DNA of 64,000 bases from Mycetocola sp. (GTDB lineage: Bacteria; Actinomycetota; Actinomycetes; Actinomycetales; Microbacteriaceae), in the NCBI RefSeq assembly GCF_025464835.1, contig NZ_JAODMP010000072.1, positions 1 to 64,000 on the forward strand, given 5' to 3'. Made by a program: the position numbers and the translations under genes. Shown here one piece after another: positions 50,419 to 59,147 of this stretch (position 1 is the stretch's first letter; every line of letters starts with the position of its first letter). The notes beneath the pieces were generated by a model. That model worked only from the letters and a program-made list of their open reading frames with translations, had not been told where the DNA came from and did not search any database.

Positions 50419-50490
50419 GCCTCTGTAGCTCAACGGAAGAGCACCTCCGTCCTAAGGAGTTGGTTGGGGGTTCGAATCCCTCCAGGGGCA
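50419..50490 (+). tRNA. tRNA-Arg (anticodon CCU)
   Basis: GCCTCTGTAGCTCAACGGAAGAGCACCTCCGTCCTAAGGAGTTGGTTGGGGGTTCGAATCCCTCCAGGGGCA. Confidence 0.94.
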
Positions 50491-50968
50491 CGTCGCTGGG
50501 GTCAGGCGGAACGAGGCCGGTACCTGACGCTGAACTTCGGTACCGAGCCCGTCTCGACCATCTGAGGGGAGCGTTCGGCGTCGCCGGGGAAGGACGCCGC
50601 GAGGCGCGGGGAGAAGACCGGCGCACGCACGCGCGTCGGGCGCGACACTTATTTCCGCGGGTCCGACTCCATCGACGTTGCGGCGTGACTCGGATGGTGA
50701 GGGCCCCTGTTGCTGTTGCGGTGGATTCGCGGATGGTGAGGGGTCCGGTGATGCTGCTGCTGCGGTGGCATCCGAACGACAACCGGGGCCCTCTCGGCGT
50801 GAGCCGTGTGCGCGGGAAGCGGTGCGGGTCCCTTCGGCGGGCGGGATCGCTGCCCAACGCGTCACAGCGGCAGAGGAATGTTCACAGAGAGGGTGGATCG
50901 TCCAAGAACGCTGGCAACTCGGCGAAAACCGGTGATGCTACCGGCATTTCGCCCGGCTAGCGCTTAGG

Positions 50969-53900
50969 GTGTGGGTTGTGTGGCGGCTAGACAAGAAACC
51001 AGATGCGCGCGATTTCGATATCGACGACGCAAATACCTCGCTTGCGCTCTCGGTCACCAGTCCGACCGGCCTGAGCGTCGGCGACCCGAACTTCGTGGTG
51101 GGCAACGTGGCAGACACGGAACGGCAGCGGTGGCGCAGCCAACTGGCAGCGGCGGGCGGGCGCTCCCCCCTGCTTCACTTCATCGACGAGCCGCGCACGC
51201 GGATCGAGCTGAGTTCAACGCACCCCGGCGGCCTTCCGCAGTTCATCACCGGCCACTCCACACTGCTGTCCAACCTCATCCGTGACGAACTCGCCCTGCG
51301 TAGCGCCAAGGCGGCTGCCGATCAGATCACCGTCAAGGGCATCGAACTGCGCACCGTGCGCGGCATCGAGTCTGTCCACCTGGCGATCGGCCTGGCCCAG
51401 TGGCGTAACAACGGTGAAGAATTCTCGGCGCCTGTCCTTCTCCGGCCGGTCGCAATCCGCCGCTACGGGCGCGACTTCGAACTCAAGCTCAAGGGCGCGC
51501 CGTTTCTGAACCCTGAGCTCGCGCGAGCTTTGCACGAGCAGTACCGGATCACCCTCGACGCTGAGGCGTTCGAAGCGCTCGCCGTCACCAACGGAGTGTT
51601 CCAGCCGCAGCCGGTGATCGACCGGCTCCGCGGCCTGACCCAGCACCTCGAATGGTTCAGCGTGCAGCCGCGGCTGGTCGTGTCGTCCTTCGCGGATGTC
51701 GGACACGCCCTCGCCCGCGACGCGAGCGACCTCGAGCACCCTGTCCTGGACGCCCTCGCAGGCAACCCTGGCGCGCGGCGGCTCGTCGAAGGTCTGTTCA
51801 GCCCGGTGGATGCCATCGGGCAGGACGAACGCCCGCCGGCAACCGACACCCTCCTCCTCGACGCTGACACCGAGCAGGAAAACGTGATCGCGCAGATCTC
51901 CGCCGGGCACTCCATCGTCGTCACCACACTCCCTGGCACCGGCGGAACGCAGACCGTCGTCAACGCCATCGGCGCCCTCGTCGAGCAGCACAAGCGTGTC
52001 CTCGTCGTCAGCGCACGGCGCTCAAGTCTCGACGGCATCCGTCACCGCTTCAGCAAGGTGGGTCTTCCCGGCTTCACCGTCAGTCCGGCGACGATCAAGC
52101 GCGACCTGATCCAGGCGATCTCCCGCAACGAGAAAGCCGTCGCCCCGAAGGTGGCCGACGTCGACGACGCCCTTGTGCGTCTGCGCAAGGTGCTCCTCGA
52201 CTACCGCGGTTCGCTCCGCCGCATCGACAGCGGCCTCGGCGTCAGCGTCATCGATGCCCTCGAAGCTCTGACGAGGCTCGGCAACCTCCCGGTCCCGCCG
52301 ACCACGTCTGCCAGGCTCGATCTCGTCTCGCTCGAAAAACTCGCAGGCAACCGCGGGATCGTCGCCCGCAAGCTGGCGACGGCGGCAGCGCTCGGTGAAT
52401 TCCAGTACGGCCCGGACGACTCTCCCTGGTACGGCGCTCAGTTCGCCAGCACCCGGCAGGCCAAGGCTACTCATGACCTGGCCAAGAAGCTGCACCGCAC
52501 CGAGCTTCCCCGGCTGCTCGAGCGTGGTTTCGAACTCATCGGCCAGACCCGCATGCGCGCATTCGAATCGGTCGAGGAACTCGGCGTGTACCTGCGGCTG
52601 CTCCTCGATGTGCGAGAGACCCTCGACAAGTTCCAGCCGAGCGTCTTCGACCGGTCGCTCGGCGAATTGATCGCCGCGACGAGCAACAGGCGGGATGCCC
52701 CGGCCATGTCCGGCGCGAACCGTCGCCGCCTCAAGAAACTCGCCCGCGAATACGTGCGCCCAGGGGTGCACATCGCGGACATGAACGCCGCGCTCCACCG
52801 CATCCAGCAGCAGAGGACCCTGTGGCAGCGGTACGTCGCTGCCGGCGTCACCCCTGAGGTTCCGCTCGGCATCGCCGACGTCCAGGTCGCCTACCAGCGT
52901 GTCGTCGAGGATCTCGCCAAGCTCGACGTTCCCCTCGGGCGCAACAAATCCGAGCCCCTGGTCTCCCTGCCGGTCAAGGAATTGATCAGGCTGCTCTCCG
53001 GGCTCGCCGCTGATTCGCAGGTGATGGAGAACCTTCAGGAGCGCACCACCCTTCTCGGGGAACTCCGCGAGAAGGGTCTCGCCCCGCTGATCACCGACCT
53101 GTCCGTCCGGCACGTTCCAGAGGACCAGGTCGCCGCCGAGCTCGAACTCGCCTGGTGGCAGTCGGTCCTCGAGCACATGCTCGCGACCGACCGTGCCCTG
53201 CTCGGGGCCAACACGAGCGTCATCGACCGCCTCGAGGCAGACTTCCGGCTGGTCGACGAAGCACACGCGTCGGCATCCGGTGCGCTTCTCGGCTCGCTGC
53301 TCGCAGAAACCTGGAAGATCGGGCTGGTCGACTTCCCGGAGGAAGCCAACGCCCTCAAGAAGCTGCTCCGTGCCGAAACCGCCAGCCCGGCGAAGCTCGA
53401 GGCTTCGGCGCCGCACCTGTCACGGGTGCTCTCGCCGGTGTGGCTGGCCTCGCCGTACGAGGTGCACGTGATCCCCGAGAGCGTCCGGTTCGACGCTGTG
53501 TTCCTCGTCGACGCCGGCGCGACCACTCTCGCCGAGAACGCCGTCGCGATCCGCCGGGCACGGCAGATCGTCGCGGTCGGCGACCCGGTGACCCAGAGCC
53601 CGACGCCGTTCCAGATCGCAATCGGAGACCTCCGGGAACCGGATGCCGCCGAGAACGTCGACGCACGCCACGCCGATTCCGCCCTCGCGCACCTGTCTGG
53701 CCTGCTGCCGACCCTCACCCTCACTCGCAGTTACCGCGCTGGGGGCGAGGACCTCGCCGAACTCGTGAACCACCGTTTCTACGGCGGCGAGATCGAGTCG
53801 CTGCCGTGGGCCGGATCCTTCCTCGGGCACGGCAGCCTCACCCTCGACTACGTGCCGAACGGGCATGGTATGCCGGACCCGGAGACCGGGGGAGTGGAGA

Positions 53901-54721
53901 GTGTCGACGCCGAGGTCGCCCGCGTCGTCAACCTCGTTCTCGAGCACGCCGTTTCCCGGCCGCGCGAGTCGCTCATGGTCATCACCGCGAGCGAGAAGCA
54001 CGCCACTCGCGTGCATCAGGCGGTCATCTCCGCTTTCGCAACGCGCGCGGACCTTTCGGACTTCATCCTCAGGGAACGCGCTGAACCGTTCACCGTGCTG
54101 ACACTCGAGCAGTCGGTGGCTGAGAGCCGTGACCGGGTCATCTTCTCGCTCGGCTACGGCGTCACCCCGCACGGTCGCGTCCTGTCGAACTTCGGCGCGC
54201 TCGGTGCCCCTGGCGGCGATCGCCTGCTGGCCGTCGGCATGACTCGAGCCCGCCGCTCGATGGTCATCGTCTCGTGCATCCGCCCCGAGGACATCGATGT
54301 GGACAGGATGCAGCACGGGATCGCCGCCCTGACCGGGATTCTGCGCCAGCCCGTGCAACACGAGCCGACGCCGCCGGCAACCGACGGCGCAGAGCCGATG
54401 CTGCTCGACCTCGCCGAGCGCCTCTACCGCCACGGGCTTTCGGTCGAAGTAGGATATCGCGGCAAGCTTGCCCTCGTCGCCTCGTACGGGAACAAAGCCA
54501 TCGCGGTGGAATCCGACCCCGAGGTCGGTTCCGATTCCCTGCGCGAGTCGCTGCGGCTCCGCCCCGATGTTCTGCGACGGCTGGGCTGGCACTACCTTCG
54601 AGTGCACAGCTTCGACCTGTTCAGCGATCCGGACGGTGTCGCGTCGAAGATCGTGTCGATGCTCGGCGCCCCGGCTGCCGACTCGAAAACGTCGGAGGCG
54701 TCGGAGGGCCCAGCCGAGTAA
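50969..54721 (+). CDS. DUF4011 / SF1 (DNA2-like) helicase-related protein with degenerate motifs and MTES_1575-type nuclease-like C-terminus
   Basis: DUF4011-like GIESVHLAIGLAQWRNNGEEFSAPVLLRPVAI; Walker A region TTLPGTGGTQT (no Lys); motif II VFLVDAGATT; RSYRAGGEDLAELVNHRFYGGEIESLP; IFSLGYGVTPHGRVLSNFGALGAPGGDRLLAVGMTRARRSM; C-term LLDLAERLYRHGLSVEVGYRGKLALVASYGNKAIAVESD...LGWHYLRVHSFDLFSDPDG. Confidence 0.85.
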   Translation: MWVVWRLDKKPDARDFDIDDANTSLALSVTSPTGLSVGDPNFVVGNVADTERQRWRSQLAAAGGRSPLLHFIDEPRTRIELSSTHPGGLPQFITGHSTLLSNLIRDELALRSAKAAADQITVKGIELRTVRGIESVHLAIGLAQWRNNGEEFSAPVLLRPVAIRRYGRDFELKLKGAPFLNPELARALHEQYRITLDAEAFEALAVTNGVFQPQPVIDRLRGLTQHLEWFSVQPRLVVSSFADVGHALARDASDLEHPVLDALAGNPGARRLVEGLFSPVDAIGQDERPPATDTLLLDADTEQENVIAQISAGHSIVVTTLPGTGGTQTVVNAIGALVEQHKRVLVVSARRSSLDGIRHRFSKVGLPGFTVSPATIKRDLIQAISRNEKAVAPKVADVDDALVRLRKVLLDYRGSLRRIDSGLGVSVIDALEALTRLGNLPVPPTTSARLDLVSLEKLAGNRGIVARKLATAAALGEFQYGPDDSPWYGAQFASTRQAKATHDLAKKLHRTELPRLLERGFELIGQTRMRAFESVEELGVYLRLLLDVRETLDKFQPSVFDRSLGELIAATSNRRDAPAMSGANRRRLKKLAREYVRPGVHIADMNAALHRIQQQRTLWQRYVAAGVTPEVPLGIADVQVAYQRVVEDLAKLDVPLGRNKSEPLVSLPVKELIRLLSGLAADSQVMENLQERTTLLGELREKGLAPLITDLSVRHVPEDQVAAELELAWWQSVLEHMLATDRALLGANTSVIDRLEADFRLVDEAHASASGALLGSLLAETWKIGLVDFPEEANALKKLLRAETASPAKLEASAPHLSRVLSPVWLASPYEVHVIPESVRFDAVFLVDAGATTLAENAVAIRRARQIVAVGDPVTQSPTPFQIAIGDLREPDAAENVDARHADSALAHLSGLLPTLTLTRSYRAGGEDLAELVNHRFYGGEIESLPWAGSFLGHGSLTLDYVPNGHGMPDPETGGVESVDAEVARVVNLVLEHAVSRPRESLMVITASEKHATRVHQAVISAFATRADLSDFILRERAEPFTVLTLEQSVAESRDRVIFSLGYGVTPHGRVLSNFGALGAPGGDRLLAVGMTRARRSMVIVSCIRPEDIDVDRMQHGIAALTGILRQPVQHEPTPPATDGAEPMLLDLAERLYRHGLSVEVGYRGKLALVASYGNKAIAVESDPEVGSDSLRESLRLRPDVLRRLGWHYLRVHSFDLFSDPDGVASKIVSMLGAPAADSKTSEASEGPAE

Positions 54722-55042: not shown

Positions 55043-55447
55043 CTAGGGGCGCAGGGTGTTCCTGGCGAGCAGGTCTCGGATCTCGGTGAGGACGTCGATC
55101 TCGGTGACCGGTGCGTCCTCGCGAACGACTCCGGCCTTGCGGCGGGCGTCAGCGTGCCCCTTCATGGTGTTGATGGGAAGGACAAAGACAAAGTAGACAA
55201 CGGCGGCGACGATGAGGAACGTCAGAATCGTGCCGATCACCGCCCCGAACTTCAGCTGGGCAGTTCCCAGAGTGAGAATCAGGGACTCATCCAGGCTGTC
55301 CGCCTGAAACAGAGCACCGATCAGCGGGTTGAAGATGTTCTCGACGATCGAGTTGACGACCGCAGTGAATGCCGCACCGATGACCACAGCGACCGCGAGG
55401 TCGATGACGTTGCCGCGCATGATGAAGTCTTTGAAACCGGTGAACAT
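55043..55447 (-). CDS. mscL: large-conductance mechanosensitive channel
   Basis: MFTGFKDFIMRGNVIDLAVAVVIGAAFTAVVNSIVENIFNPLIGAL. Confidence 0.97.
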   Translation of the reverse strand: MFTGFKDFIMRGNVIDLAVAVVIGAAFTAVVNSIVENIFNPLIGALFQADSLDESLILTLGTAQLKFGAVIGTILTFLIVAAVVYFVFVLPINTMKGHADARRKAGVVREDAPVTEIDVLTEIRDLLARNTLRP

Positions 55448-55472
55448 GTGGGTCTCCAGGTCGAAGAAGGGA

Positions 55473-55820
55473 TCAGGAGGCGGCGGGAGCGCTGCTGCTG
55501 CTGCTGCTGCTGCCGCTGCTGCTGCTGGAGTTACTGCTGCTGCCGCTGCTGCCGCTGCTGGAGTTGCTGCTGCTGCTGCCGCTCGTCGCTGCCGCCGAGG
55601 AGGTTGCCTTCTCCGTCTTCTTTCTGCTTGCCGGGTTCTCACTCTTCCGCGAATCGTTGCGGTAGAAACCTGATCCGTTGAAGGTCACCCCGACGGCGCT
55701 GAAGAGCTTACGAAGCTTGCCTTCGCAGGTGGGGCATTCGGTGAGGGAAGCGTCGGTGAATGACTGCTGGATGTCGAATGCGGTGTCGCAGACGGTGCAT
55801 TTGTACGAATACGTGGGCAT
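55473..55820 (-). CDS. FmdB-type zinc-ribbon protein with poly-Ser tail
   Basis: MPTYSYKCTVCDTAFDIQQSFTDASLTECPTCEGKLRKLFSAVGVTFNGSGFYRNDSR; four-Cys ribbon. Confidence 0.95.
   Translation of the reverse strand: MPTYSYKCTVCDTAFDIQQSFTDASLTECPTCEGKLRKLFSAVGVTFNGSGFYRNDSRKSENPASRKKTEKATSSAAATSGSSSSNSSSGSSGSSSNSSSSSGSSSSSSSAPAAS
55492..55580. repeat. CTG/CAG-type trinucleotide microsatellite within fmdB-like gene
   Basis: (CTG)n interrupted by CCG and GAG units; codes for Ser-rich tail on minus strand. Confidence 0.9.
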
Positions 55821-58217: not shown

Positions 58218-59147
58218 ATGACTGGTGGCGGGCTTCTGAGTGGCGGGATCGTCTTCGCTGTCGCCGCCGTGCTCTGGATCGTCTACCTGTTGCCAACCTG
58301 GCTGCGCCAGAGCGAATATCTCGCCACGGAACGCAACGCCATCCGGCTGCAGCAGACCCTGCGCATCCTCGCCGAAACGGCCGAGGTTCCCGCCGAGATC
58401 CGCGTGGAAGCCACCGCCCGCAACGTCGCCGAGCAGCAGAGAATCCTCAAGCGTGTCGAGGCCGACGTGCGCGAACGAGCCAGACTCGAAGCGACAGCAT
58501 CCGCAGAAGCCGCTCGAGCCGCCGCTGCTGCGGCCATAACGGCCCTGCGAGCCGAGCCGCGTGTGCGCATCGCCCGGGCACGCCGACGCGCCCGCCTCAC
58601 CGCCACCACCGTGCTCTTTCTGTCTCTCGTCGCCGCGGGTGTCGGCGGCTGGGTTCTCGCGACGGCTGGATCTGCCCTGCTCCTCAGCACAGCAAGCGGA
58701 ACCGCCCTCGTCGCGCTCGCCATGATCGTTCGCATGGCGAGGGTGGGCCAGCGCACCCTGCGGGTTCTGGCGCCGACACAGTCCGTGCAGCGGCCGGCGG
58801 TCTTCGAACCCGTCGAGATGGAAGCCAGCGCACCGGCTGCAGCCACCTGGACGCCCATGCCTCTGCCGAAACCGCTTCACCTCTCGCAGGGCTCCTCCGC
58901 TGCGGAGGCGATCGCGCAGGCAGACGCGCACGCCGCCCTCCGTCGCGCCGCGATCGCGCAGGTCATGGCTGCCCGTGCCGCCGAGCAGGCGCCTGCGGTC
59001 CCGTCCATCGTCGCGCCGGCCGTTGTAGAGCCCGCCATGCCGGTCGTCGCCACGAACCCCTTCGCGGGGATGGGAATCGTGAACGAATCCGAACTGGCCC
59101 CGACAGACATCAACGCAATCCTCCAGCGCCGCCGTATCGCCAGTTAG
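58218..59147 (+). CDS. membrane/coiled-coil protein resembling GlpR/SepX divisome proteins
   Basis: N-terminal TM IVFAVAAVLWIVYLLPTWLRQSEYLATERNAIRLQQTLRILAE, Ala-rich coiled coil, RRRARLTATTVLFLSLVAAGVGGWVL; follows galU-rimJ. Confidence 0.7.
   Translation: MTGGGLLSGGIVFAVAAVLWIVYLLPTWLRQSEYLATERNAIRLQQTLRILAETAEVPAEIRVEATARNVAEQQRILKRVEADVRERARLEATASAEAARAAAAAAITALRAEPRVRIARARRRARLTATTVLFLSLVAAGVGGWVLATAGSALLLSTASGTALVALAMIVRMARVGQRTLRVLAPTQSVQRPAVFEPVEMEASAPAAATWTPMPLPKPLHLSQGSSAAEAIAQADAHAALRRAAIAQVMAARAAEQAPAVPSIVAPAVVEPAMPVVATNPFAGMGIVNESELAPTDINAILQRRRIAS

Follow-up and report, generated by a model that had tools for sequence, protein, structure and literature searches.

The DNA analyzed here (the window) comprises 64,000 nt of a Mycetocola sp. 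contig (NZ_JAODMP010000072.1) and carries an ORF of 1250 codons on its forward strand (50969-54721). The frame is open throughout and the ORF is real, as originally predicted, but the start listed with it, 50969, is probably not the true one. Residues V4-W5-R6 of the listed ORF are common to its orthologs, and in several of these a stop codon stands just three codons before them, so that the GTG at 50978 (residue 4) is the conserved and probable true start, giving a gene at 50978-54721 (+) for a protein of 1247 aa. A tRNA-Arg(CCT) gene lies about 480 bp upstream (50419-50491, +), the tRNA that had been placed just before the ORF, and the convergent neighbor is mscL (55043-55642, −), a syntenic anchor that adjoins the gene in this orientation in many families of the GTDB order and in family f35 of another order. 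Among the genes that flank the locus are those for 5-FTHF cyclo-ligase, GalU and an acetyltransferase. An HNH endonuclease gene (PF01844; 49291-49818, +), preceded by an NlpC/P60 gene, is found upstream and occurs near the gene in 6 of the 20 loci compared for synteny, f7 among them. Downstream, a probable membrane protein is encoded at 58218-59147 (+); it is conserved there in 12 of the 20 loci and its product has no match in Pfam or NCBIfam.

A −10 element, TAGGGT (50965-50970, +), is located 7 nt before the GTG and is predicted to mark a leaderless promoter. A conserved box farther upstream, GCGAAAacC (50922-50930, +), is a possible regulatory site. In all 58 orthologs with a GTG-TGG start, TANNNT precedes the GTG by exactly 6 or 7 nt, a placement seen in 1.5% of shuffles, although the neighbors are related and the shuffle is only a guide. 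Further conserved upstream blocks read GCGAAAcyCG and T-CC-GG-(A/T)TT. Box, −10 element and GTG are arranged as in leaderless promoters of actinobacteria, and the gene is thus predicted to have a conserved promoter of its own of this type. Four of the five genomes scanned contain the combined pattern once each, at this gene and nowhere else in them; therefore, a regulator acting on 50922-50980 may be dedicated to it.

Domain layout and predicted fold

Pfam profiles match the window protein in the order DUF4011, AAA_11, AAA_12 and MTES_1575, which agrees with the original block order and with membership in the DUF4011-RecA1-RecA2-MTES_1575 superfamily. All four scores are below gathering (MTES_1575, 28.5 vs 38.2 bits; DUF4011, 21.8 vs 22.2; AAA_12, 16.4 vs 27; AAA_11, 13.8 vs 27), while orthologs with intact motifs pass all four cut-offs. 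The N-terminal domain including DUF4011 covers residues 53-300 (51125-51868, +; AlphaFold2 pLDDT 79.2). The Walker A segment, LPGTGGTQT (residues 321-329; 51929-51955, +), has Gly326 at the position of the Lys in the ortholog alignment. Between it and motif II there is an all-helical insertion (residues 441-800; 52289-53368, +) that includes W487, R585, W619 and R714. Motif II itself reads VDAGATT (residues 847-853; 53507-53527, +), in which DE(A) aligns with DAG. Motif III Gly-Asp (871-872; 53579-53584, +) is retained almost everywhere in the alignment and the S-Y-R block (921-923; 53729-53737, +) is retained in Microbacteriaceae. In the motif V region, LTLEQSVAESRDRVIFS (54098-54148, +), Q-G-(D/E) is lost and RD is retained; TLEQSVAESRDRVIFS begins there at residue 1045 of the listed ORF. 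Motif VI, GGDRLLAVGMTRARRS (residues 1082-1097; 54212-54259, +), is retained. The MTES_1575 domain of REase fold (54386-54679, +) contains LALVAS and AVESD; its first catalytic Asp is lost, ExD is mostly retained across orthologs and W1207 is retained. Each motif quoted in the original prediction was found in its expected place.

The window protein is thereby confirmed as a DUF4011/Upf1-like SF1B helicase/MTES_1575 protein without the Walker A Lys, the motif II Asp-Glu and the first nuclease Asp. From these substitutions we infer that the Lys-less protein would neither hydrolyze ATP nor cleave nucleic acid.

An AlphaFold2 model of residues 45-1237, built from 60 sequences, reached a pLDDT of 78.5 and a pTM of 0.65. 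Its top Foldseek matches in the PDB were Senataxin (E = 2.7e-13), Aquarius, Upf1 (2.1e-9), Sen1, Ighmbp2 and Dna2, in line with the SF1 fold that had been expected. The core match is to Upf1/Senataxin, that is, an SF1B Upf1-like fold, and global TM-scores are low because the added domains are large. The N-terminal domain alone had no match at E ≤ 0.001 among solved structures. Judging from the model, both the SF1B Upf1-like fold and the REase-like domain remain in the degenerate protein.

Catalytic residues across the order

Orthologs were found in all 59 relatives, in 148 of 149 genomes of the order (the sole exception is a 580-contig assembly) and in 41 of 118 genomes sampled from the class, a figure in which members of the order and weak domain-level matches are counted. 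Far from mostly keeping GKS and DEA, the aligned orthologs lack the Walker A Lys in 119 of 129 cases. The remaining 10 have it together with the motif II Asp-Glu, a perfect co-occurrence, and all 10 also have an intact nuclease D..ExD triad; these three features are intact together only in two other families of the order, f5 and most of f18, and in one ortholog from another order. The Lys is absent from all 43 aligned Microbacteriaceae, where the first Asp of the triad is also replaced throughout (43/43), and from 80 of 80 independently fetched named loci (Mycetocola, Clavibacter, Leifsonia, Rathayibacter, Agromyces, Cryobacterium and others), which answers in the affirmative the originally suggested check of whether a Lys-less Walker A is conserved in this family. 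At the DNA level, 266 of 300 Microbacteriaceae genomes contain the pattern PGTG-x-TQT, and no Lys codon occupies x among the matches listed.

The substitutions recur across the family and chance does not account for them. The alignments support the pseudo-enzyme reading and indicate that the trait is broader than first proposed, covering nearly the whole GTDB order rather than one strain or Microbacteriaceae. Several other families of the order have a wholly destroyed P-loop (e.g., EASGRNGVSS, APVGADVAGT) with the gene still at the locus. The gene is also kept in genomes of 0.8-0.9 Mb, one of which (927,303 bp) has a still more eroded P-loop. Considering its length of about 1250 residues and its almost universal retention through the order, these small genomes included, the protein is probably important. 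The window genome has a single match to the family and long paralogs of about 2000 aa are sporadic; an active paralog as partner was rejected on these grounds.

Two gene trees were built with the motif columns masked and with the root placed by choice on f39, where support is moderate. Families are clades or nearly so, and the intact rows are those of f5, seven of the nine f18 rows and the f39 row. The Lys state requires at least three changes, a minimum on the two masked trees. We take their direction to be loss, since a joint regain of Lys, DE and nuclease triad is improbable. The ancestor was probably a catalytic helicase-nuclease like the intact orthologs of f5, f18 and f39, given that these fall within the same family tree and, in f18, also occupy the mscL locus (six intact-motif orthologs: L108, L111, L112, L122, L124 and L125). 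Besides all Lys-positive rows, the triad is intact in some Lys-less rows of f6, f7, f15, f16, f18, f25 and f35, which suggests that the helicase died before the nuclease. Trees and locus together point to a core gene that is vertically inherited and anciently inactivated.

Constraint and candidate functions

Nei-Gojobori dN/dS against five congeners is 0.049, 0.065, 0.069, 0.087 and 0.081, with similar values in the DUF4011 region, RecA-1, insertion, RecA-2 and nuclease and relaxation only in the N-terminal 52 residues; more distant pairs gave 0.133 and 0.236, with dS near saturation. At close range amino-acid identity declines much as it does for GalU, MscL and SerC encoded on the same contigs, and at long range it is lower than that of GalU. 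These estimates indicate strong purifying selection over all domains of the Lys-less protein. Lost catalytic residues, dN/dS far below 1 and a conserved locus thus come together, the combination expected of a pseudoenzyme under selection, and the protein is very probably both catalytically dead and selected. The loss of catalytic residues could by itself mark a decaying gene on its way out, a reading to which we give next to no weight in view of frames open in nearly all genomes examined, dN/dS of about 0.05-0.09 against congeners, the conserved promoter and the same state across the family. The original preference for selection over decay therefore stands, and decay specific to this strain is ruled out by the family-wide Lys loss, the open frames and dN/dS.

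The pattern of retained columns shows where the constraint lies. Of the columns invariant in intact orthologs, Lys-less families retain 85% within the helical insertion and 79% within the nuclease domain, 66% in each of the N-terminal and RecA-2 domains and 50% in RecA-1, percentages that are rough because the Lys-positive set is small (seven groups). The columns lost are largely those of the catalytic pocket (G320, K326, D847/E848, Y922, Q1050, D1168), and the insertion is the best-kept part of the family.

Our overall best reading, with a probability of roughly 55%, is a domesticated, non-catalytic nucleic-acid scaffold that resembles RecC in its logic; a nucleic-acid scaffold as the role, taken separately, we put at about even odds. 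An ancestral catalytic helicase-nuclease would have been inherited vertically at one conserved locus across the order, losing ATP hydrolysis first and DNA cleavage later. Selection would then have acted on the protein body, namely the DUF4011 domain, the helical insertion and the REase-like fold, and this body would serve housekeeping by binding nucleic acid without catalysis, as a scaffold or a platform for recruitment. Nucleic-acid binding by the window protein is an assumption, the net charge of its domains being near neutral or negative except in RecA-1, and the analysis turned up no partner for it.

The same charges, which show no bias favoring nucleic acid, fit a rather unlikely alternative in which the link to nucleic acid is gone and the protein is a protein-protein assembly factor or regulator with a merely inherited fold. 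Such a role would agree with a best-conserved part that is a helical insertion with invariant Trp/Arg and not the canonical helicase motifs, and with a DUF4011 domain without a significant solved relative, but it leaves the persistence of motif III GD, motif V RD, the motif VI Arg and the REase-like fold to be explained.

A pure scaffold has a difficulty of its own in Microbacteriaceae. There, the rest of the P-loop (PGTGxTQT) and the motif VI Arg are almost invariant, and a scaffold would not need them. The pocket is constrained outside the catalytic residues (T327 in 42/43 sequences, Q328 43/43, G325 42/43, Y922 42/43, R923 43/43 and R1093 40/43), as would be expected if the Lys-less P-loop still bound ATP/ADP or another nucleotide and signaled by conformation without hydrolysis. 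Because the rest of the pocket is so constant, a nucleotide-gated switch is a serious rival to the scaffold within Microbacteriaceae; overall we consider it unlikely, since several other families have destroyed the P-loop and keep the gene at the locus, and it cannot be the order-wide function.

Relation to known helicase-nucleases

The DUF4011/SF1/MTES_1575 (Vsr-like REase) proteins, PDC-S37, ProA and Hhe share the same domain order, with homology over the insertion, RecA-2 and the nuclease, the parts over which the ProA and PDC-S37 profiles match the window protein. A defense protein of this type, with its sensor kept and its effector lost, would be consistent with a PADLOC PDC-S37 score of 312 bits on part of the profile (which has no curated cut-off), with 293.5 bits for NCBIfam ProA (NF058533), and with the 823-916 bits that intact orthologs, including those of f18 at the same locus, score against PDC-S37. 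The ProA score and that for Hhe (NF042953; 149.1 bits) are far under the curated 1500 and 2000. Unlike the PDC-S37/ProA/Hhe group, the window protein lacks Lys, DE and nuclease Asp, is below all Pfam/NCBIfam cut-offs and is a single-copy core gene across the order, not a patchy defense gene; it occupies a core locus in nearly all genomes of the order, has housekeeping neighbors, is kept in genomes of about 0.9 Mb and has no relative confirmed on viral contigs by pattern search. Present-day defense is for these reasons improbable, and the proposed defense link was not sustained for this gene. More tentatively, the core genome could have taken in a defense-type helicase-nuclease at the base of the order, which became a perhaps essential non-catalytic nucleic-acid platform, with at least three independent losses of the ATPase followed by loss of the nuclease. 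Microbacteriaceae, Micrococcaceae-like and related families would then share an unrecognized universal component that maintains chromosome or RNA.

A mobile or defense island was also rejected on the viral-contig search; plasmid matches are distant DUF3320/DUF4011 proteins and one ortholog, carried along with the whole core locus by a 415-kb replicon of Actinomyces oris. The latter ortholog (NZ_CP116225.1, 377016-388738), annotated 'DNA helicase', adjoins mscL on a replicon called a plasmid, and the core genes on it suggest a chromid or an assembly question.

The nuclease-like domain of RecC lost its activity and came to serve as a hoop for single-stranded DNA (PMC1185551). RecC of RecBCD and the helicase-like domain of AddB (PMC4824097) are likewise helicase-nuclease homologs that turned non-catalytic and were kept as DNA-handling scaffolds, whereas the window protein comes from a different, Upf1-like SF1 branch and has no known motor partner. 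Its genome has no match to the recC profile (TIGR01450) and, with recC not co-distributed, an association with RecBCD was discarded. Deinococcus radiodurans PriA is similarly a bacterial core helicase with lost motifs, a pseudohelicase that has lost its ATPase and by experiment still binds DNA and its partner DnaB (PMC4504706); PriA is an SF2 protein and biochemically tested, while the window protein is known from sequence and model alone. The scaffold reading would liken its working mode to that of the dead nuclease-like domain of RecC and of Deinococcus PriA, inside larger machines. The SF1B proteins Upf1, Senataxin, Ighmbp2 and Dna2, its top structural matches, are active motors, and Dna2 is also a nuclease-helicase; the window protein differs from them in its nuclease fold, DUF4011 domain and insertion.

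A literature search on DUF4011, MTES_1575 and pseudohelicases, with subscription journals and preprints outside its scope, returned nothing on the window protein, and the ortholog goes unmentioned in the main text of a paper on essential genes of B. breve (PMC5514069). Orthologs are currently annotated as ordinary helicases or hypothetical proteins; annotation pipelines and defense finders should not call such proteins active helicases or defense genes. What use a cell makes of a helicase-nuclease unable to hydrolyze ATP or cut is a testable question. Since one sister family has intact orthologs at the same locus, a natural series from enzyme to pseudoenzyme is available, probably motor first and nuclease second. 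Three orthologs of f7 (L037, L107 and L115) combine a dead helicase with an intact nuclease triad, a possible intermediate stage that would be useful for biochemistry.
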